Origin: a virus
Reading direction: 5' to 3' (one strand)
IMG/VR virus record: IMGVR_UViG_3300006929_000141
Location: 1-22,336 of that record
Length of the DNA: 22,336 nt
Positions 2,733-11,591 of this stretch are shown here, piece after piece (positions within the stretch are counted from its first letter, which is position 1; every line of letters starts with the position of its first letter). Below the pieces are notes generated by a model that did not search any database, was not told where the DNA came from, and was given only the letters and a program-made list of their open reading frames with translations. Both the position numbers and the translations under genes were made by a program.

Positions 2733-2751
2733 CTATTCCTCCATTTATAGT
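2722..2751 (+). promoter_or_regulatory. Sigma70-type promoter for the rightward operon
   Basis: TTGACA (2722-2727) is a perfect -35 box, followed after 18 bases by TATAGT (2746-2751), five of six matches to the -10 consensus. Transcription would start near 2758 and reach the gene at 2811. The -35 lies in the first codons of the helicase gene on the other strand. Confidence 0.6.
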
Positions 2752-2753
2752 TG

Positions 2754-2782
2754 ATTTTACGGAAGACACAATCCCGTGTCAA
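2754..2782 (-). promoter_or_regulatory. Sigma70-type promoter for the leftward helicase block
   Basis: Read on the - strand, TTGACA (2777-2782) is a perfect -35 box, then a 17-base spacer, then TAAAAT (2754-2759), five of six to consensus. Transcription would start near 2747, about 15 bases before the helicase ATG. Its -10 is two bases from the -10 of the opposing promoter. Confidence 0.7.
2765..2780. promoter_or_regulatory. Inverted repeat GACAC-N6-GTGTC, candidate operator
   Basis: GACAC (2765-2769) and GTGTC (2776-2780) form a perfect 5-bp dyad with a 6-base centre, overlapping the -35 and spacer of the leftward promoter. A repressor bound here would block that promoter and perhaps affect the rightward one. 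The RHH protein at 807-974 is a candidate ligand by location only. Confidence 0.4.
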
Positions 2783-2810
2783 CCAATTTAACCTGAGAAG
2801 GAATAAATCT

Positions 2811-3365
2811 ATGGAAATCTTTGAAGATTACTATGATGAAGCTGATGCAGTATCACAAGTCAATACTGAAACAGCAAAAAATTTAAGTGGCTTGGTGCGA
2901 AACCTCAGAAAAGTAGAAGATCAGATCGAGGACGCAGAACAACATGTCAAAGAACTGAAGAGGGCAAAGCAAAAGCTTTCAACCGAAACAATACCCGCTC
3001 TAATGGATGAGATGGGTCTTGAGCGATTGGATGTGGATGGCATGACAGTTCAAAGAAAGTTGATTGTTCATGCCTCGATACCCAAAGATCGTACTGATGA
3101 GGCCCATGCCTGGCTACGAGAGAATAAATATGATGACATTATAAAGAATGATGTCACTTGTTCTTTTGGCAAAGGCGAGGACAACATGGCGGGAGATGTC
3201 GTAGGTATGCTCGAGGAGCGAGGATTCTACCCCAAAACCAAAACCCATGTACACTCATCCACTCTAAAGGCCTTTGTTAAAGGTCTTGTCGAGGGAGGAA
3301 AGCCTGTCGATCTCGAATTGTTCGGGGCTTATGTTAATAATGCAGCTGAAATACGGAGGAAATAA
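2811..3365 (+). CDS. Coiled-coil hypothetical protein of replication operon, 184 aa
   Basis: The 184-residue product starts MEIFEDYYDEAD. A TTG start 60 bases upstream is possible, but the ATG at 2811 has GAAGGA upstream and the extra 20 residues would fall inside the promoter region. Residues about 18-55 are highly charged with heptad-like spacing (LRKVEDQIEDAEQHVKELKR), a likely coiled coil. Next comes a compact part with TIPALMDEMGLERLDVDG and then a predicted alpha/beta region. It is followed after two bases by the SSB-like gene. I recognise it only as a type of unnamed protein placed next to phage SSB genes. A role as an SSB or replisome partner is inference from position. Confidence 0.7.
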   Translation: MEIFEDYYDEADAVSQVNTETAKNLSGLVRNLRKVEDQIEDAEQHVKELKRAKQKLSTETIPALMDEMGLERLDVDGMTVQRKLIVHASIPKDRTDEAHAWLRENKYDDIIKNDVTCSFGKGEDNMAGDVVGMLEERGFYPKTKTHVHSSTLKAFVKGLVEGGKPVDLELFGAYVNNAAEIRRK

Positions 3366-3367
3366 CT

Positions 3368-4147
3368 ATGAATGATATAACAAAAACCAAAGGAACCGCG
3401 ATGTCTACTGAAGTGATGGACGATATCTTTGAAAGTGCTGGAGAGGGAGCAAGCTTTGACAGTAGTGAGATGCAGATCCCATTTGTCAGGCTTATCCAGG
3501 CTCTGTCACCCCAGATCTCAAAAAAGAAACCTGAGTTTATTGAGGGTGCGTCACAAGGAGATGCGTTTAACACCGTTACGAAAGAGTTTTGGGATGGAGA
3601 ACAAGGTCTTACCGTTGTGCCGTGCTTCCAAACAACAAAGTATCTGGAGTTCGTACCTCGAGAGAGCGGCGGAGGGTTCCAAGGAGAGATCGCACCAGAC
3701 GATCCTTTAATACAACAGGCCACGCGGACTGGTGCAAAGGAGATCTTACCTAGTGGCAATGAGCTCGTTAAGTCGGATCAGCATTTCTGTTTGATTGTTG
3801 GTGAGGATGGGTCTTTCCAACCCGCGATCATTGATATGAAATCTACTCAGCTAAAGGTCAGTCGTAATTGGAAGACTATGATTGCGATGCAAAAAGTAGA
3901 TCATCCTACTAAAGGTAAGGTCACCCCTGCGGTATTTGCTACTAAGTGGAAACTATCTTCCATCGAGCAAAGCAATGACAAAGGTACGTTTGCCAATTGG
4001 CAAGTTGAAAAGATAGGTCTTGTTGATAATCGAGATCTATTGATGGAGGCCAAAGCTTTCCGCTCAAGCGTGGCGGCAGGCGAAGTTAAAGCTGCACCAG
4101 AGGAGTCTCCTAGCTCCGCTGTTAACGGAGATGAAATACCGTTTTAA
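3368..4147 (+). CDS. Single-stranded DNA-binding protein-like, 259 aa
   Basis: The 259-residue product ends in an acidic tail closing with NGDEIPF, very like the DDDIPF tip that bacterial SSB proteins use to recruit partners. The body (about residues 35-230) looks like a beta-rich single domain with an N-terminal segment EMQIPFVRLIQALSP, a composition I associate with phage SSB-like proteins of replication modules. The function is inferred from tail, size and position between the coiled-coil protein and the primase. GGAGG eight bases before the first ATG supports the start at 3368; a second ATG at 3401 also has AAGGA, so an 11-residue shorter form is possible. A strong hairpin follows the gene, consistent with a need for more SSB than downstream products. 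Confidence 0.7.
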   Translation: MNDITKTKGTAMSTEVMDDIFESAGEGASFDSSEMQIPFVRLIQALSPQISKKKPEFIEGASQGDAFNTVTKEFWDGEQGLTVVPCFQTTKYLEFVPRESGGGFQGEIAPDDPLIQQATRTGAKEILPSGNELVKSDQHFCLIVGEDGSFQPAIIDMKSTQLKVSRNWKTMIAMQKVDHPTKGKVTPAVFATKWKLSSIEQSNDKGTFANWQVEKIGLVDNRDLLMEAKAFRSSVAAGEVKAAPEESPSSAVNGDEIPF

Positions 4148-4157
4148 ATGTAGCACG

Positions 4158-4190
4158 GTGGCGGAGAGGGGATGCTCCGCCACTTTTTCT
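4158..4190 (+). terminator. Rho-independent terminator/attenuator between SSB and primase genes
   Basis: GTGGCGGAG (4158-4166) and CTCCGCCAC (4175-4183) form a perfect 9-bp GC-rich stem with an 8-base loop, followed by TTTTT. It lies 11 bases after the SSB-like stop and 12 bases before the next ATG. No separate promoter fits in between, so it probably acts as a leaky terminator that lowers expression of the primase and genes beyond. Confidence 0.85.
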
Positions 4191-4201
4191 AGGAGATACT
4201 A

Positions 4202-5737
4202 ATGTCGAATGCAAAAAGATTATTGGAAGCCTTTGAAGGATCTTCCCTAGCTCACGGTAGAACTACCGTGGGGCGTGTTGGACGCAATGGGAAGACAGAC
4301 GCTAAGTACACAGTGCTTCGAGAACCTCTTACTGAAACAGTAATGCAACATCATATTGATGGTAAGCAAGGTGTGAACTCAATCCCCATCAATGCAGACA
4401 ATCAATGTAAGTTTGGTGTTCTTGATATTGACATATATGATTTAGACTTAGGCGAATTAAATAAAAAGATTAAAAAATTAAAGCTTCCCCTTTTCCAATG
4501 TCGATCCAAGTCAGGTGGAGCTCACCTGTTTTTATTCTTAAAGGATTGGGAGCCAGCGGCTTTGGTACGAGAGTACCTACTCGAGATGTCTGTTGTGTTA
4601 GGATACGCTAGTGATTGCGAGATCTTCCCAAAGCAAGACAAGATTATGGCTGACCGGGGGGATGTTGGTAGTCATATCAACGTACCGTACTTCAATGCAG
4701 AACAAACCATGCGTTATTGTTTCGATAGCCAGGGCCAGGCGATGGAGTTGGAGGAGTTTCTAACCGCAGTTGAGAAGGGTCGAGTATCAATATCCGAACT
4801 GAATGAGATGGATCTTGGTGGTAAAAGGGAAAGTTTTACGGACGGACCGTATTGTTTAGAAGTAATGACCAGTCTTGGGAAAGTTTCAAAGTACAGAAAC
4901 ATATTTATGTTTGCGGTTGGTGTGTATTGCCGAATGAAGTGGCCTGATGATTGGAAGAAACACCATGAAGAATACAACCGACAGTTTTGTTCACCCGCTC
5001 TCCCCTCGAGGGAGGTGGTAGATATCCAGGGATCACTAGAGAAGAAAGAATATTTCTATCAGTGTGACCAATGTCCATTAAAAGATCATTGCGATAAGGA
5101 TCTATGTAAGACCAGACCCTATGGGGTGGGTAACGATGCCTTGGATCTTCCTACGATGGGAGGTCTAACGATTATAAAATCTCAACCTCGACTTTACTTT
5201 ATGGATGTTGAAGGCAAACGTGTGGAACTATCCACGGATCAATTAGTTAACCAGGGCCTTTGGGCAAAGGCATGTGTAGAACAGATCAGTTACTTCCCAT
5301 CTATGATGAAGCCAAGCAAATGGAACTCAACAATAAACCAGATGTTACAAGAGGGAACCTACTTAGAGGTGACCGAAGAGTTTACATATCACGGACAGTT
5401 TAAAGATCATCTTAGAAACTATTGTACAAGTCGAGTACGCGCTATGTCCCCTGATGAGATCCAGATGGGCAAGCCCTGGACCGAGGGCGGAGTTACTAAA
5501 TTCACAATCAATGGTCTAATGGAATATCTAAATAGACAAGATTGGAAACACTGGTCCAAGGCTCAAGTACAAGAGGGTATTAAAGCATTGAACGATGACG
5601 GTGATGGTGTGGGACACCAGAACATAATGAGAGGCGGCAAACGAACTTCGATTAGAGTTTGGTTTGTTCCTTCTTTTGAACCAGAAGAACTTGAAACAAT
5701 CACAAAGGAGAATGATGATGACAAAATCCCCTTCTGA
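4202..5737 (+). CDS. DNA primase of archaeo-eukaryotic (AEP) type, 511 aa
   Basis: The N-terminal half carries the AEP primase pattern: VLDIDIYD (73-80) with paired metal-binding aspartates, RSKSGGAHLF (101-110) as the nucleotide-handling strand, CEIFPKQ (139-145) and GSHINVPYF (156-164). This arrangement resembles the primase domain of TOTE-type conflict systems and several phage primases. A Cys cluster C288-x2-C291-x5-C297-x4-C302 suggests a zinc (or less likely Fe-S) site. The C-terminal 200 residues carry no helicase motifs and may hold winged-helix-type domains. The last residues, NDDDKIPF, resemble an SSB tail. It would synthesise RNA or DNA primers for the polymerase encoded downstream. 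AGGAG precedes the ATG by seven bases. The primase class is judged from motifs; the Cys-site metal is unknown. Confidence 0.8.
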   Translation: MSNAKRLLEAFEGSSLAHGRTTVGRVGRNGKTDAKYTVLREPLTETVMQHHIDGKQGVNSIPINADNQCKFGVLDIDIYDLDLGELNKKIKKLKLPLFQCRSKSGGAHLFLFLKDWEPAALVREYLLEMSVVLGYASDCEIFPKQDKIMADRGDVGSHINVPYFNAEQTMRYCFDSQGQAMELEEFLTAVEKGRVSISELNEMDLGGKRESFTDGPYCLEVMTSLGKVSKYRNIFMFAVGVYCRMKWPDDWKKHHEEYNRQFCSPALPSREVVDIQGSLEKKEYFYQCDQCPLKDHCDKDLCKTRPYGVGNDALDLPTMGGLTIIKSQPRLYFMDVEGKRVELSTDQLVNQGLWAKACVEQISYFPSMMKPSKWNSTINQMLQEGTYLEVTEEFTYHGQFKDHLRNYCTSRVRAMSPDEIQMGKPWTEGGVTKFTINGLMEYLNRQDWKHWSKAQVQEGIKALNDDGDGVGHQNIMRGGKRTSIRVWFVPSFEPEELETITKENDDDKIPF

Positions 5738-5942
5738 GAAACTGATACCTGTTAGCGAAGTTGCTGACTGGTTAGGTGTATCCAGATCCACTATTTATAA
5801 GTGGGTAGAACTAGAAAAATTTCCGCCGCCCTTGATCCTTGGAATCGAGGGAGATGGTAAGAGGAGTGCAAGCAGATGGTATAAGTCTGAAGTCACCGCT
5901 TGGTTAGAAGATCGACCGCGTGGTATACAACATGGGCTCTAG
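5718..5942 (+). CDS. AlpA-like helix-turn-helix DNA-binding protein, 74 aa
   Basis: The sequence EKLIPVSEVADWLGVSRST, then IYKWVELEKFPPPLIL, then SASRWYKSEVTAWLEDRP is typical of AlpA/excisionase-type proteins: a MerR-like winged helix that recognises DNA, with the SRSTIYKW recognition helix and the W-x-x-SEV-x-x-W end. Three ATGs occur in a row (5712, 5715, 5718); AAGGAG at 5705-5710 is correctly spaced only for the last, which gives 74 residues. It overlaps the primase end by 20 bases. Members act as transcription activators or as directionality factors with integrases, but no integrase is visible here. A regulator of phage genes or an origin-binding helper are both possible. Confidence 0.8.
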   Translation: MTKSPSEKLIPVSEVADWLGVSRSTIYKWVELEKFPPPLILGIEGDGKRSASRWYKSEVTAWLEDRPRGIQHGL

Positions 5943-7458
5943 TACTCTGATCTTTGGACCTCCTGGTTGCGGCAAGACTTACACTCTTATTGAGAGCGTT
6001 AAGGAGGCTCTGGCTGAAGGCACGTCTCCAGATCGTATAGCGTTTGTATCTTTTACAAAGAAGGCGGTGCGTGAAGCTACGGATAGAGCCTGTGCTGCGT
6101 TTAACCTGACGGAGAAAGATCTACCTTATTTTAGAACACTACACTCTATGGCCTTTAGAGGGCTTGGATTGCAGTCTTCTGATATGCTTGGTCGAGATGA
6201 TTGGAGAATCTTAGGGAACCAACTTGGTTTAATCTTTGATGGAGTAAGCGGAGTATCTCCAGACGATGGAATGATTATGCCTTTGCCGATTGGTAAGGGA
6301 GACACCTATCTTCAGTTAATGACAAGAGCTCGATACAAAATGATTTCTTTTGAAAAAGAATACAACCAACATGGAGACCGGGATATGTATTTTCCACTCC
6401 TAGAAAAGATTGAGAAAATTGTTTCTACTTACAAACAGGAAAACACTAAGTATGACTTCGTTGATTTGATAGAACTATACATACAATCTGTGATGCCTCC
6501 CTCGTTAGATCTATTGATTGTTGATGAGGCACAAGATCTGACACCGTTGCAATGGGAAATGGTAAAGACAATAAGCTCGAATGCGAAGAAGGTTTTATAT
6601 GCGGGAGATGATGACCAGGCGATCCACCGATGGACAGGTGTTGATGTACGGTTATTCCTAGGGTGCAGCGATCAAAAAGAAATACTTACTCAGAGTTATA
6701 GATTACCAGTGTCAGTGCATCGTTTGTCTCAGCACTTGGTGCATAGGATAGATGAGAGACAAGAAAAAGAATTTAAACCTACCGAGGATCGAGGGTCTGT
6801 AAACTTTCACAGACAGATACGAGAACTTGATTTCTCCACAGGATCATGGACGTTGATGGCTCGAACCAATGCAATGGTACGAGAGTGGGGGGAGTTGCTA
6901 CAGGCCGAAGGTCTTTTGTATTCTATAAAAGGTAGGAGTAGTATTAGCCAATCCACGGCAGAAGTGATTACTTCGTGGAAAAAATTACAGAGGGGAGAAC
7001 ATTTACCTCTTGCATCTGTTGTTAAACTCTACGAAAATGTCCCCAAGATGGGAGATTTCAAAGTAGTGAAACGAGGTTCGAGCAACCTATTACAGGCCGT
7101 TGATCCTGAAAGCCTCCTGTCTTACGAAGATCTTAAAGAAAAATATGGAATGGAAGCACCCAAGGACCGAGATGCGATGGACGTGGCTCGACTAGGCACT
7201 CATGATAAGCTTTACTTTGAGGCTATTGAGCGGAGAGGCGAGGACATTCTGGACGAACCTAGGATTAAACTGTCAACCTTTCATGCCATGAAGGGGGGAG
7301 AAGATGATAATTGTGTGGTATCTTTATCAAGCACTCGAGCATGTGCTGAGAATAGAAACCAAGACGATGAGCACCGTGCATTTTATGTTGGCGTAACGAG
7401 AGCTAAGAAAAATCTGCACATAATTGAGTCCGATAAAAAATACAGGTATATGGTATGA
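5932..7458 (+). CDS. Superfamily 1 (UvrD/Rep-like) DNA helicase, 508 aa
   Basis: The helicase motifs of the UvrD/Rep group are present: Walker A GPPGCGKT (9-16), motif Ia AFVSFTKKA (37-45), motif II VDEAQDL (197-203), motif III AGDDDQAIHRW (224-234), motif IV QSYRLP (254-259), motif V TFHAMKGGE (449-457) and motif VI FYVGVTRAK (484-492). It should unwind DNA 3' to 5' at the fork or during repair. At 508 residues it is much shorter than UvrD (about 720), so accessory domains must be reduced. The start is uncertain: an ATG at 5932 or a GTG at 5920, neither with a clear ribosome site, suggesting coupling to the AlpA-like gene it overlaps. Its stop at 7456-7458 lies 11 bases before the preferred transporter start. 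Confidence 0.92.
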   Translation: MGSSTLIFGPPGCGKTYTLIESVKEALAEGTSPDRIAFVSFTKKAVREATDRACAAFNLTEKDLPYFRTLHSMAFRGLGLQSSDMLGRDDWRILGNQLGLIFDGVSGVSPDDGMIMPLPIGKGDTYLQLMTRARYKMISFEKEYNQHGDRDMYFPLLEKIEKIVSTYKQENTKYDFVDLIELYIQSVMPPSLDLLIVDEAQDLTPLQWEMVKTISSNAKKVLYAGDDDQAIHRWTGVDVRLFLGCSDQKEILTQSYRLPVSVHRLSQHLVHRIDERQEKEFKPTEDRGSVNFHRQIRELDFSTGSWTLMARTNAMVREWGELLQAEGLLYSIKGRSSISQSTAEVITSWKKLQRGEHLPLASVVKLYENVPKMGDFKVVKRGSSNLLQAVDPESLLSYEDLKEKYGMEAPKDRDAMDVARLGTHDKLYFEAIERRGEDILDEPRIKLSTFHAMKGGEDDNCVVSLSSTRACAENRNQDDEHRAFYVGVTRAKKNLHIIESDKKYRYMV

Positions 7459-7469
7459 AAGGAAATAAA

Positions 7470-7925
7470 ATGAAATATGCGATATTATATGTAGCGGCAA
7501 TTGTTGCCGTTAATTATGGGTTTTCTGTTATAAAACCTTGGTTTGTGTTTGGTGCGGCTTTACCGCCAATGACCTTTTTAGTTGGAGCTGTCTTTATTTT
7601 AAGGGACTACGCACAAAAAGATTTAGGTCATTATGTTTGGGCTCCAATGGCAGTCGGTATTTTACTTAGTTACCTAATGGCTGATCCATTTATAGCGATT
7701 GCTTCAGCATTGGCTTTTATAGTTTCAGAAACAACAGATTGGGCTGTGTACACTAAAACAAAAAGACCTATGAAAGATAGGATACTTTTATCTTCCGCGA
7801 TATCTGTTCCAATTGATAGCCTTGTCTTTTTGGTTGTTGCAGGATTTTTTGGTTGGACAGCATTTTTTGTAATGGTTGTTTCTAAAATGATTGCGTCAGT
7901 TATTGTTTGGTTATCTTTAAAATGA
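7470..7925 (+). CDS. yhhQ: YhhQ/VUT-family queuosine precursor transporter, 151 aa
   Basis: The protein is almost entirely hydrophobic with about six membrane segments (roughly 2-20, 25-46, 57-72, 73-88, 106-124, 127-149). Family-specific stretches are LPPMTFLVGAVFILRDYAQ (31-49), ADPFIAIASALAFIVSE (71-87) followed by TTDW, and SVPIDSLVFL (112-121), matching the VUT/YhhQ family that imports 7-deazaguanine precursors such as preQ0 and preQ1. At 151 residues it matches the short form. An ATG at 7455 overlaps the helicase stop, but AAAGGA six bases before the ATG at 7470 favours the latter. Its end overlaps the DpdA-like gene as ATGA. The neighbour implies it feeds a base to that enzyme. The substrate is known for the family, not shown here. 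Confidence 0.88.
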   Translation: MKYAILYVAAIVAVNYGFSVIKPWFVFGAALPPMTFLVGAVFILRDYAQKDLGHYVWAPMAVGILLSYLMADPFIAIASALAFIVSETTDWAVYTKTKRPMKDRILLSSAISVPIDSLVFLVVAGFFGWTAFFVMVVSKMIASVIVWLSLK

Positions 7926-8602
7926 TTCATTATCACGGCACTCCCTTAACACCTAACTCTGAATTGTTAAAGATGGCTGGAAAACACTTTTGTGTTAGTT
8001 ATGCCAATCCAGAAAATGCAGATTGGTGTTTTAAGAATTCTCAATCTGTTATGTGGGATAATGGTGCGTTTACTTCTTACACACAAGGTCAAGAATTTAA
8101 TTTAAAAGGTTTTATATCTTGGGTTGAGGAGTTTCTTTATCCCCCGCATTGGGGAGTAGTTCCTGATATAATTGGTGGAACAGTGGAGGATCAAAAGAAA
8201 TTAATGCATGAATGGCCTTACTCTAAAGAACTTTCTGCCCCTGTTTGGCATATGAATTTACCCATTGACTGGCTACTTGAAATTGCAGACAATTATCCAC
8301 GGTTTTGTTTTGGTTCTTCTGGACAATATTGGCAAGTTGGTTCTGAGGCTTGGTGTAGACGATGCGACGAAGCTTGGAATGAACTAACCAGAAGGAATTA
8401 TCGACCTTGGGTACATATGATGAGGGGACTTTCTTTATGTGGGGATGTTTGGCCTTTTGCTTCTGCCGATAGTACAAATGTTGCTAGAAACTTTAAGAAT
8501 ATAGGTCATCAAGTTTGTCCAGAGAGAATGGCAAGAAGAATTGATTCTATTCAAAGTTGGAAGAAGTGGTCAATAAAAGAAACACAATTGTCTTTAATAT
8601 AG
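7922..8602 (+). CDS. dpdA: DpdA-like 7-deazaguanine DNA transglycosylase (TGT paralogue), 226 aa
   Basis: The order of motifs follows the tRNA-guanine transglycosylase barrel in the compact phage DpdA form: HYHGTPLTP (3-11), VMWDNGAF (43-50; D46 as DSGGF-type general acid), VVPDIIGG (79-86; D82 in the base-recognition position), FGSSGQYWQVG (130-140; equivalent to the GGLAVGE loop), VHMMRGLSL (164-172) and PFASADSTNVARN (178-190; D183 as likely nucleophile). The TGT zinc cluster is not visible, as expected if DNA rather than tRNA is bound. DpdA replaces guanine in DNA with preQ0 or a relative. The ATG overlaps the transporter stop and has no ribosome site of its own, so the two are translationally coupled. 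Residue equivalences are by motif order; a tRNA substrate is the alternative. Confidence 0.85.
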   Translation: MIHYHGTPLTPNSELLKMAGKHFCVSYANPENADWCFKNSQSVMWDNGAFTSYTQGQEFNLKGFISWVEEFLYPPHWGVVPDIIGGTVEDQKKLMHEWPYSKELSAPVWHMNLPIDWLLEIADNYPRFCFGSSGQYWQVGSEAWCRRCDEAWNELTRRNYRPWVHMMRGLSLCGDVWPFASADSTNVARNFKNIGHQVCPERMARRIDSIQSWKKWSIKETQLSLI

Positions 8603-8611
8603 GGAATCAAT

Positions 8612-8875
8612 ATGAAAAGAGAAGAGTTATTACAAAAAGCAGAATCCTTGGTCAACGGTCCGAGAGCCAAGCATTATGGAGATGCTTACGAAAACCATGA
8701 GCGTATCGCCAAGTTATGGTCTGTAGTGTTAGGGGTAGACATAACTGTTGCCCAAGTTTATCTTTGCCTAAACCAATTGAAGGTATCAAGACTTATTGAA
8801 ACCCCTGATCATGAAGACTCTTGGGTGGACATAGCTGGATATGCAGCTTTAGGTGGAGAGAAATGGAACGAGTAG
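8612..8875 (+). CDS. DUF6378-like phage protein, 87 aa
   Basis: The pattern HYGDAYENHERIAKLW (21-36) followed by LKVSRLIETPDHEDSWVDIAGYAAL matches a small phage family that I recall as DUF6378. It is all-helical, with acidic residues spaced (E27, E30, then D66, E67, D68 and D72) in a way that recalls all-alpha NTP pyrophosphohydrolases of the MazG type, though that is only a suggestion. AGGGAA five bases before the ATG sets the start, nine bases after the DpdA-like stop. Its end overlaps the PP-loop gene by 13 bases. If it cleaves nucleotides it could adjust precursor pools; the function is not established. Confidence 0.75.
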   Translation: MKREELLQKAESLVNGPRAKHYGDAYENHERIAKLWSVVLGVDITVAQVYLCLNQLKVSRLIETPDHEDSWVDIAGYAALGGEKWNE

Positions 8876-9672
8876 ATCCTATTATATCTTGGTGGAGTGC
8901 GGGCGTGACGAGTGCGGTTGCTACTAAACTTGCCATAGATAAGTATGGATCTGATGCCGTCCGACCTATGTACTTTCAAATAGATAGTGCTCATCCTGAC
9001 AACGACAGATTTAAAAGTCAGTGCGAAGAATGGTACGGTAAAAAAATAGAAGTTCACAGATCTCATAAGCATAATGATCAGTTTGAAGTTATCATCAAAG
9101 ATAAATATGTTAATGGACCAGGTGGTGCCCGATGTACTTTGGTTCTCAAGAAGAGAGTTCGTCAAAGGATAGAGAAAGAAGTAGATTACTCAGGCCAGAT
9201 CTTTGGGTTTGAGTATAGCAAAAAAGAAATCAATCGAGCCATTCGATTTAAAGAACAGTATCCTGATGCCAAACCTTTATTCCCTTTGATTGAGAACAAG
9301 GTCAATAAGAAGGAGTGTCTTTTTTATTTAGAGCAACAAGGAATTAAACGACCAACGATGTACACTCTTGGATACAACAACAATAATTGTATCGGTTGTG
9401 TGAAGGGCGGCATGGGATATTGGAATAAAATACGGACAGACTTTCCAGATCATTTTGAAAAAATGGCACAGGCAGAAAGACAAGTGGGTAATTCATGTAT
9501 AAGAGGAATCTTTTTGGATGAACTTGACCCAGAGGCAGGAAGAAGACAGAAGATTGTGACCCCAGATTGTGGTAATTTTTGTGACATTGAATTTACAGAG
9601 ATCATGCATCCTAGAGTTGAGTCGATCTACGAACAACCAGAACAATTATCTTTTATGTTTGAGGAGAAGTGA
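8863..9672 (+). CDS. PP-loop ATPase, phage PAPS-reductase/adenine nucleotide alpha-hydrolase-like, 269 aa
   Basis: Near the N-terminus, ISWWSAGVTSAVA carries SAGVTS (12-17) in place of the SGGxDS PP-loop, followed by an alpha/beta Rossmann-like pattern. ARCTLVLK (89-96) is the R-x-C-T-x-x-x-K block seen in CysH/DndC-related enzymes. Further Cys residues are C176-x2-C179, C212 and C236-x3-C240, enough for a metal or Fe-S site. The ECGLH motif of true sulfate-assimilating CysH is missing, so assimilation is unlikely. Such phage proteins are usually called PAPS reductase-like without proven function; members of the superfamily adenylate a substrate during base or backbone modification (QueC, TilS, DndC). 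GGAG precedes the ATG by four bases. Position between the DpdA-like gene and the polymerase suggests DNA or nucleotide modification, which is inference. Confidence 0.75.
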   Translation: MERVDPIISWWSAGVTSAVATKLAIDKYGSDAVRPMYFQIDSAHPDNDRFKSQCEEWYGKKIEVHRSHKHNDQFEVIIKDKYVNGPGGARCTLVLKKRVRQRIEKEVDYSGQIFGFEYSKKEINRAIRFKEQYPDAKPLFPLIENKVNKKECLFYLEQQGIKRPTMYTLGYNNNNCIGCVKGGMGYWNKIRTDFPDHFEKMAQAERQVGNSCIRGIFLDELDPEAGRRQKIVTPDCGNFCDIEFTEIMHPRVESIYEQPEQLSFMFEEK

Positions 9673-11591
9673 TGCAGAAGAATCTATTCGAGATCAGTAG
9701 CAGTAACGATGATGATTACCTAATAAAAAACGAAATGGATCTCATTGAAAAAGACTGGAACATACCACCAGAGTACCCCGACCTAACAGGGTATAAACAA
9801 ATAGCGATAGACCTCGAGACATGTGATCCTAACATCATGACTTTAGGTCCTGGTTGGTCAAGAAACGATGGGCATATAGCCGGGATTGCGGTAGCAGCAG
9901 GGGATTACTACGGATACTTCCCAATCAAGCATGAGAACGGACATAACTTAGACCACAAGATGACCATGAAATGGTTGAAGAAACAGATGGAAACCCCTGA
10001 CATTGATAAGATCATGCACAATGCCACCTACGACGCAGGATGGCTCCGCTCAGTGGGCATTGATGTCCAGGGTAGGATAATCGATACGATGCTTGCTGCG
10101 GCTCTCATAGACGAGAACAGGTTCTCCTACAGCCTAAACAATTTAGGCAGAGATTACCTAGGTGAAACAAAAAGTGAGAGGCTTCTTAGAGCAGCCGCCG
10201 CAGAATGGGGGATCGATCCCAAGGCAGACATGCACAAACTACCTCCGAAATATGTGGGAGCCTACGCAGAACAAGACGCAGTGCTCACATTAAAACTCTG
10301 GGACAGATTCAAAGCAGAGATATCACAACAGGAACTAAGTCACATTTTTGATTTAGAAACATCTCTTATACCAGTAATGCTTGACATGAGACAGAAAGGC
10401 GTTCGCGTAGATCTTAACAAGACAGATAAAATTCGTTCAGAACTCAGGTCCAAGGTGCGAGAACTGAAAGCAGAGATCAAACGTAAGAGCGGCGTGGACA
10501 TCGAACCTTGGGCAAATGCCTCTGTAGAGAAGGTGTTCCAAAAGCTAGACATCGATTACCCTACTACGGAAGCGGGTAGCCCATCCTTTACAAAACATTT
10601 CTTGAATGCTCACCCTAATGATGTAGCTCAGATGATTGTAAAGCTACGAGAGTTTGACAAGGCAGACAGTACATTTATTGATAGTATCATGCGCCATGAA
10701 CATAAAGGTCGGATACACACAGAGTTCCACCAACTTAGAAAGGACAATGCGGGAACTGTAACGGGAAGATTTTCGTCTAGTAACCCAAACCTCCAACAGT
10801 TTCCTGCGAGGGATCCAGATATTAAGAAGGCAATCAGAGGATTGTTTCTACCAGAAGAAGGTGAGAAGTGGGGAAGCTTTGACTACTCGAGCCAAGAACC
10901 GAGGCTCCTAGTGCATTTTGCATCGTCACTACCAGATGGAATGAAGCACTCTGTGGTTGATGGGATAGTCGAAGAGTACAACAATGGGGATGTTGACCTA
11001 CACCAGATGGCGGCAGATCTTGCAGGGATCTCTAGGAAAGAAGCCAAGGTTGTGAACCTAGGTATCATGTATGGAATGGGTGTTGGAAAACTCAGCAATC
11101 AATTGGATATTGCCAAGGAGGAGGCCAAGGATATCCTTGAACTCTACAACGATAAGGTGCCTTTCGTAAAACAGTTGGCAAACATGGCAAGTCAAAGAGC
11201 CGAGAGCCAAGGTCAGATACGAACGATCCTTGGTCGTAAGTGTCGGTTCCACCTATGGGAACCTCGAACCTTTGGATACAATAAAGCGTTACCACTAGAA
11301 GATGCTAAGAAAGAATATGGTGGACTTGGAATGTTGAGAAGAGCGTTCACTTACAAGGCTTTAAATAAACTTATCCAGGGAAGCGCAGCGGATCAAACGA
11401 AGAAAGCTATGGTCGATTGTTATGCAGAGAAACTTCTTCCTATGTTAACGGTTCATGATGAGTTGTGCTTCTCAGTAGAAAGTCAAGAACAAGCTAAAAG
11501 AATAACTGAAATCATGGAGACAGGGCTACCATTAAACGTACCAACAAAGGTGGACTGTGAACTAGGCGACAATTGGGGGGAGGCAGGATAA
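9672..11591 (+). CDS. Family A DNA polymerase with 3'-5' exonuclease, 639 aa
   Basis: This replicative polymerase has the proofreading and polymerase domains of the Pol I family and no 5' nuclease domain. Exonuclease motifs are AIDLET (D47, E49), HNATYD (D121) and YAEQD (198-202). Polymerase motif A is FDYSSQEPRLL (D404), motif B is RKEAKVVNLGIMYG (455-468), and motif C is VHDEL with H595-D596-E597. In motif B the residue aligned with E. coli Phe762 is Leu463. At 639 residues it is close to other phage PolA proteins. The ATG at 9672 shares one base with the PP-loop stop and has GGAG five bases upstream; a GTG one codon earlier is less likely. It presumably works with the primase and helicases of this operon. 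Confidence 0.95.
   Translation: MQKNLFEISSSNDDDYLIKNEMDLIEKDWNIPPEYPDLTGYKQIAIDLETCDPNIMTLGPGWSRNDGHIAGIAVAAGDYYGYFPIKHENGHNLDHKMTMKWLKKQMETPDIDKIMHNATYDAGWLRSVGIDVQGRIIDTMLAAALIDENRFSYSLNNLGRDYLGETKSERLLRAAAAEWGIDPKADMHKLPPKYVGAYAEQDAVLTLKLWDRFKAEISQQELSHIFDLETSLIPVMLDMRQKGVRVDLNKTDKIRSELRSKVRELKAEIKRKSGVDIEPWANASVEKVFQKLDIDYPTTEAGSPSFTKHFLNAHPNDVAQMIVKLREFDKADSTFIDSIMRHEHKGRIHTEFHQLRKDNAGTVTGRFSSSNPNLQQFPARDPDIKKAIRGLFLPEEGEKWGSFDYSSQEPRLLVHFASSLPDGMKHSVVDGIVEEYNNGDVDLHQMAADLAGISRKEAKVVNLGIMYGMGVGKLSNQLDIAKEEAKDILELYNDKVPFVKQLANMASQRAESQGQIRTILGRKCRFHLWEPRTFGYNKALPLEDAKKEYGGLGMLRRAFTYKALNKLIQGSAADQTKKAMVDCYAEKLLPMLTVHDELCFSVESQEQAKRITEIMETGLPLNVPTKVDCELGDNWGEAG

Follow-up and report, generated by a model that had tools for sequence, protein, structure and literature searches.

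Among the closest described systems is that of Escherichia phage CAjan (Seuratvirus), in which FolE, QueD, QueE, QueC and DpdA are encoded in one cluster with an annotated preQ0 transporter inside it. Deletion of CAjan dpdA leads to loss of dPreQ0 from the DNA and loss of restriction resistance (PMC6884629), and a preQ0 transporter within a full pathway is also known in phage EC151 (PMC8310023). DpdA has been reported without preQ0 synthesis genes in Salmonella phage 7-11 and Pantoea phage MED16, the DNA of which contains dADG by LC-MS at about 0.02% of G in 7-11 and about 0.13% in MED16 (PMC6884629, PMC8306585); the restriction enzymes tested on MED16 DNA were barely affected by dADG (PMC8306585). 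Hutinet et al. 2019 left open the base source of 76 such DpdA-only phages, for which uptake of exogenous precursor was suggested, and described phage YhhQ as uncorrelated with any phage group (PMC6884629).

Genomic context of the gene pair

The window analyzed here is an entire IMG/VR record, a 22,336 bp fragment of a marine phage. On its + strand, a transporter gene (7470-7925) and an enzyme gene (7922-8602) lie between a helicase gene (5920-7458) and genes for a DUF6378 protein, a PAPS-reductase-like protein and a DNA polymerase. The G+C content of the pair is 36-38%, versus 43-45% in the flanking helicase and polymerase genes. Positions 2751-11591 resemble Pelagibacter phage HTVC023P (60.9 kb), with the same early-gene order and a homologous polymerase (51% identity), and no VUT-DpdA pair was found in the interval between helicase and polymerase of that phage. 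Missing from this related backbone and lower in G+C content, the pair seems to be a cassette that was acquired. The likeness to HTVC023P also suggests that the window may hold about one third of the genome it derives from, and hints at a marine alphaproteobacterium as the possible host.

The DUF6378 protein (8612-8875), named "phosphofructokinase" in PHROG, is a frequent but loose neighbor of the pair in relatives. Just 3' of the pair, positions 8821-9672 encode a PAPS-reductase-like N-type ATP pyrophosphatase of the QueC superfamily, which was rejected as a part of the module since such a gene lies within 1.5 kb of the enzyme gene in just 5 of 176 loci. A scan for sigma-70 promoters and terminators gave no excess over shuffled sequence, and no tRNA genes were found in the window.

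A putative queuosine-precursor transporter

The first gene of the pair (7470-7925, + strand) is predicted to encode a 151-residue VUT/COG1738 (YhhQ-type) queuosine-precursor transporter. It is preceded by a Shine-Dalgarno-like AAGGA (7459-7463, + strand) 6 nt 5' of the ATG at 7470, and an alternative in-frame ATG upstream, at 7455, overlaps the helicase stop codon. An earlier reading made from sequence only had placed a VUT/YhhQ-type membrane protein here, and this was borne out by a Pfam Vut_1 match of 33.4 bits, above the cut-off of 27.2. With the NCBIfam model TIGR00697 ("queuosine precursor transporter"), the protein scored 28.9 bits, below the equivalog cut-off of 50.95, and it is shorter than the 201 positions of that model; by these scores it is placed among the Vut_1 relatives but outside the TIGR00697 equivalogs. 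Both Vut_1 and the NCBI queuosine precursor transporter model are matched by each of the 15 VUT proteins drawn from pairs, and alignment of the window protein with the annotated CAjan preQ0 transporter gives 43% identity over 148 residues. Assignment to the VUT proteins of queuosine-precursor transporter type, with a putative substrate, is supported by the Vut_1 match, the CAjan homology and phrog_4899.

The sequence-only reading had further given the transporter six membrane segments. Hydropathy and an AlphaFold model (pLDDT 90) agree on a membrane helix bundle and put the count at 5-6, leaving exactly six segments plausible but not fixed. The best fold match of this model was the S-component FolT, at an insignificant score, with weak similarity to FolT and ThiT. 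The dN/dS ratio of the transporter is about 0.05-0.1 and does not exceed that of the enzyme. With dN of 0.02-0.16 versus dS of 0.3-2.5, both genes of the pair are under purifying selection.

A compact DpdA-like enzyme

The second gene (7922-8602, + strand) encodes a predicted compact DpdA-like 7-deazaguanine base-exchange enzyme of 226 residues. Its start codon shares an ATGA (7922-7925, + strand) with the transporter stop codon, and no Shine-Dalgarno sequence precedes the enzyme ATG at 7922 (ttggttatctttaaa), both as previously read. Given this overlap and no ribosome site of the enzyme's own, its translation is probably coupled to that of the transporter. The four motifs named in that reading, DNGAF, PDIIGG, GSSGQY and PFASADSTN, are all present, and its description of a TGT-like enzyme agrees with the profile evidence. 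The protein matches phrog_887 ("queuine tRNA-ribosyltransferase") at E 4e-41, and an hhalign comparison of the 36-member enzyme family with CAjan DpdA covered 156 columns at E 3.7e-9 and 96% probability. The alignment places two aspartates in register with CAjan, both of them invariant across the 36 homologues. Asp46 of WDNGAF (8057-8059, + strand) falls on the Asp of CAjan DSGAF, which corresponds to DSGGFQ of TGT, and is predicted by analogy to be catalytic; Asp183 of ASADSTN (8468-8470, + strand) falls on CDSSS of CAjan DpdA and is the candidate nucleophile.

BLASTP matched the enzyme to 7-11 gp32 (29% identity, E 3e-21), and it is 34% identical to the DpdA of MED16. Structure searches, which the sequence-only reading had named as a check on both proteins, gave a mixed outcome for the enzyme: a BFVD fold search gave 20 matches at E<=0.001, in which those with names are phage queuine/queuosine transferases and the others are uncharacterized, while a PDB fold search returned generic TIM barrels with no TGT in the top 50. 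For the transporter, they gave the FolT match above. A PDB sequence search gave no match, none of the 36 family members matched Pfam TGT (PF01702), and the TGT zinc motif CxCxxC...H is absent from the family alignments. Direct profile comparison with 12 canonical TGTs was insignificant, its best segment aligning DNGAF with DSGGFQ, and the link to TGT was therefore made through CAjan DpdA. The matches to CAjan DpdA, 7-11 gp32, MED16 DpdA and the BFVD transferases identify the enzyme by homology as a compact DpdA, and its membership in the DpdA/TGT superfamily is supported; we infer that it acts on DNA.

Recurrence of the pair across phages

In order to place the pair among its relatives, the 80 IMG/VR loci closest to the window were inspected. 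Of the 77 loci with room for a VUT gene, 76 have one within 1.5 kb of the enzyme gene on its strand, upstream in 38 and downstream in 38. The VUT genes fall into two diverged lineages, each found in both gene orders, with the distant lineage 26-33% identical to the window VUT. Reciprocal searches from VUT genes found the enzyme next door in 31/32 and 67/77 loci with room, and VUT is rarer near more distant DpdA subfamilies (30/80 and 8/80). About a hundred dereplicated loci carry the pair; of the 98 dereplicated VUT loci, 74 have the two genes overlapping or separated by no more than 10 nt, and 24 have them >100 nt apart. On a FastTree phylogeny of 177 sequences (176 dereplicated loci and the window), in which many branches are weak, VUT presence changes about 20 times and gene order about 11 times. 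As each of the two families occurs in roughly 0.2% of 50,697 phage records, this pairing is beyond chance, and the transporter and enzyme form a real conserved module. Since the pair recurs in many unrelated phages, these phages probably import the modified base instead of making it. In Acinetobacter phage vB_AbaM_AB3P2 and Vibrio phage K392, the VUT gene overlaps a DpdA-like gene and carries no annotation beyond hypothetical.

Synthesis genes and alternative sources of the base

The absence of FolE, QueD, QueE and QueC noted in the sequence-only reading holds for the 22,336 bp and extends to nothing beyond them, as the window is a fragment. The further claim that the base is taken up instead of made cannot be read from the fragment; what stands in its favor comes from relatives, in which the module is conserved and in which no FolE, QueD or QueC was found in four complete phages carrying the pair (Rhizobium phages RHph_X2_30 and RHph_N3_2, Pseudanabaena phage Pam5 and Vibrio phage K392). 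This absence favors salvage or supply by the host. From the homology, the pairing and these missing genes, the interpretation of the window pair as a probable salvage-type DpdA module is well supported.

Enzyme homologues without VUT frequently adjoin a gene for a QueD-like protein (Pfam PTPS; L285, L303, L121) or a QueE-like radical-SAM protein (L108, L296, L308, L311), and in one instance QueC (L393); these neighbors connect the enzyme with the preQ0 pathway. The synthesis neighbor of such a transporter-less compact DpdA is often one lone gene, for example a QueD-like gene of ~100 aa, and, among cultured phages, Caulobacter phage DMCA has an enzyme homologue with QueD. Among the 176 dereplicated loci, VUT is present in 98, QueD/QueE in 23 and both in 0 (hypergeometric P 9e-10), with QueD/QueE models that were built from loci without VUT. 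A tree-aware test of this exclusivity was insignificant, and because too few independent pairs lie on supported branches, we treat it as a trend only. When 39 records, mostly with VUT, were searched separately with the Pfam models of QueC and QueD, DMCA alone gave a match. An enzyme that depends on a 7-deazaguanine base, imported or synthesized, would be expected to have either VUT or synthesis genes as neighbors.

The second VUT lineage adjoins QueC at the end of QueE-QueD-QueC clusters. Four loci in Ensifer, Microvirga and Devosia genomes (L141-L144) have QueC next to a VUT of this lineage (lineage B), L141 and L144 also with QueE and QueD, and a weakly TGT-like long ORF lies nearby in L142, L143 and L144. 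By gene content, these bacterial loci appear to be 7-deazaguanine clusters that include a transporter of the same kind.

An unnamed family of ~82 aa (CPNNGE...VEHI...FHEQIAD...AHHHGVDIET) adjoins the compact DpdA in 37 of the 176 loci (L364:5756-6001, L105:9753-9995, L117:4765-4998 and L118:5678-5914, among others), and 16 of these 37 carry VUT as well. An hhalign comparison with QueF (E 2.6e-4, probability 42%) brings its Cys-Pro, VE and FHE motifs into register. This suggests a QueF-like enzyme of half the usual size, possibly acting on preQ0. This protein was rejected as the source of dADG in MED16 and 7-11, as it is absent from both genomes. One possible interpretation, to which we give somewhat less than even weight, is that compact DpdA is a cassette enzyme with exchangeable base suppliers, either an importer (VUT) or QueD-like, QueE or QueC proteins, sometimes with the ~82-aa QueF-like protein, the window having the import version. 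If so, the modification level of phages with the import version would depend on dissolved environmental 7-deazaguanines.

Proposed function and alternative explanations

The explanation that we consider best, and probable, is that the pair imports a base and inserts it into DNA. During infection, VUT in the host inner membrane would take up a 7-deazaguanine base, and the co-translated compact DpdA would swap guanines in DNA for the imported base or a derivative, with two Asp residues performing base exchange as in the TGT superfamily. In this way, the phage would supplement host preQ0 instead of carrying FolE-QueD-QueE-QueC. Candidates for the imported base are preQ0, preQ1 and queuine, of which the first two are most likely; the direction of transport, the substrate, the action on DNA and the benefit to the phage are all inferred. 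Evasion of restriction through modified DNA, the use proposed in the sequence-only reading, is the weakest step and is doubtful because the two measured relatives carry only 0.02-0.13% modified G. If import and insertion do operate as proposed, phage DNA chemistry would depend on an environmental nutrient.

The name of phrog_887, the relationship of the enzyme to the TGT superfamily and the service of VUT family members to tRNA queuosine in bacteria would also fit a role in tRNA modification, in which a shortened TGT would act with imported queuine or preQ1 on the tRNA of host or phage and so adjust translation. We regard this as improbable: the window carries no tRNA gene, the enzyme is ~150 aa shorter than canonical TGT and lacks its conserved zinc motif, and the nearest functional match is DpdA, with the 7-11 and MED16 homologues accompanying modified DNA. 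In addition, canonical tRNA TGT is present in 14 of 15 bacterial genomes carrying relatives, and replacing it would bring little. Still less probable is that VUT has a different cargo, for instance another vitamin-like molecule, and is no more than a common neighbor of the enzyme. The Pfam name "putative vitamin uptake transporter", the resemblance to FolT and ThiT and the score below the TIGR00697 cut-off would agree with another substrate, but the identity to the transporter inside the CAjan preQ0 cluster, the reciprocal adjacency from two VUT lineages and the position of the second lineage beside QueC in QueE-QueD-QueC clusters argue against it.

The source of the base bears on a third alternative, in which host preQ0 is the main supply and VUT does no more than replenish the pool or recover leaked base, making the module a booster and no salvage route. 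Strong QueC matches were detected in 10 of the 15 bacterial genomes; as most carrier bacteria encode QueC, import is not strictly needed and may only top up the host pool, and a host without preQ0 synthesis was rejected as a general reason for import. A transporter alone does not mean dependence on salvage, since CAjan has both a transporter and full synthesis, and the DpdA-only phages 7-11 and MED16 have modified DNA with no adjacent transporter (PMC6884629, PMC8306585). Set against this are the near-universal pairing in the window subfamily, a VUT dN/dS no higher than that of the enzyme, and the lack of any locus among the 176 with both VUT and QueD/QueE. We consider a mere booster unlikely, though less so than the two preceding alternatives, and retain import followed by insertion into DNA as the preferred explanation.

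Comparison with known systems

The window resembles the CAjan cluster in its homologous transporter and in a homologous DpdA with both aspartates in register; as differences, CAjan makes its own preQ0, carries dPreQ0 at about 32% of G, has a DpdA of 306 aa and does not have its transporter and DpdA genes as an overlapping pair. With 7-11 and MED16 the window shares compact DpdA homologues, whereas those phages have no VUT beside dpdA and are modified at a very low level. The transporter matches the Vut_1 and queuosine precursor transporter models as does the COG1738/QPTR family, which includes the E. coli preQ0/preQ1 transporter YhhQ, but it is only 151 aa long, falls under the NCBI equivalog cut-off and has a predicted substrate. 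Likeness to bacterial TGT (PF01702) consists of superfamily kinship via DpdA and of the DNGAF Asp, which the best profile match, itself insignificant, aligns with DSGGFQ; in contrast to TGT, the enzyme has no Pfam TGT match, no zinc motif and 226 aa versus about 370 aa.

The limited literature searched yielded no description of a near-obligate coupled transporter-DpdA pair of the window subfamily, and no DNA base analysis of any phage with the pair. Phage preQ0 transporters in full pathways and DpdA-only phages are already known; what appears to be new, judging from these loci, is the near-obligate coupled pair, in which one DpdA subfamily is almost always joined to a YhhQ-type transporter, in contrast to the earlier statement of no correlation.
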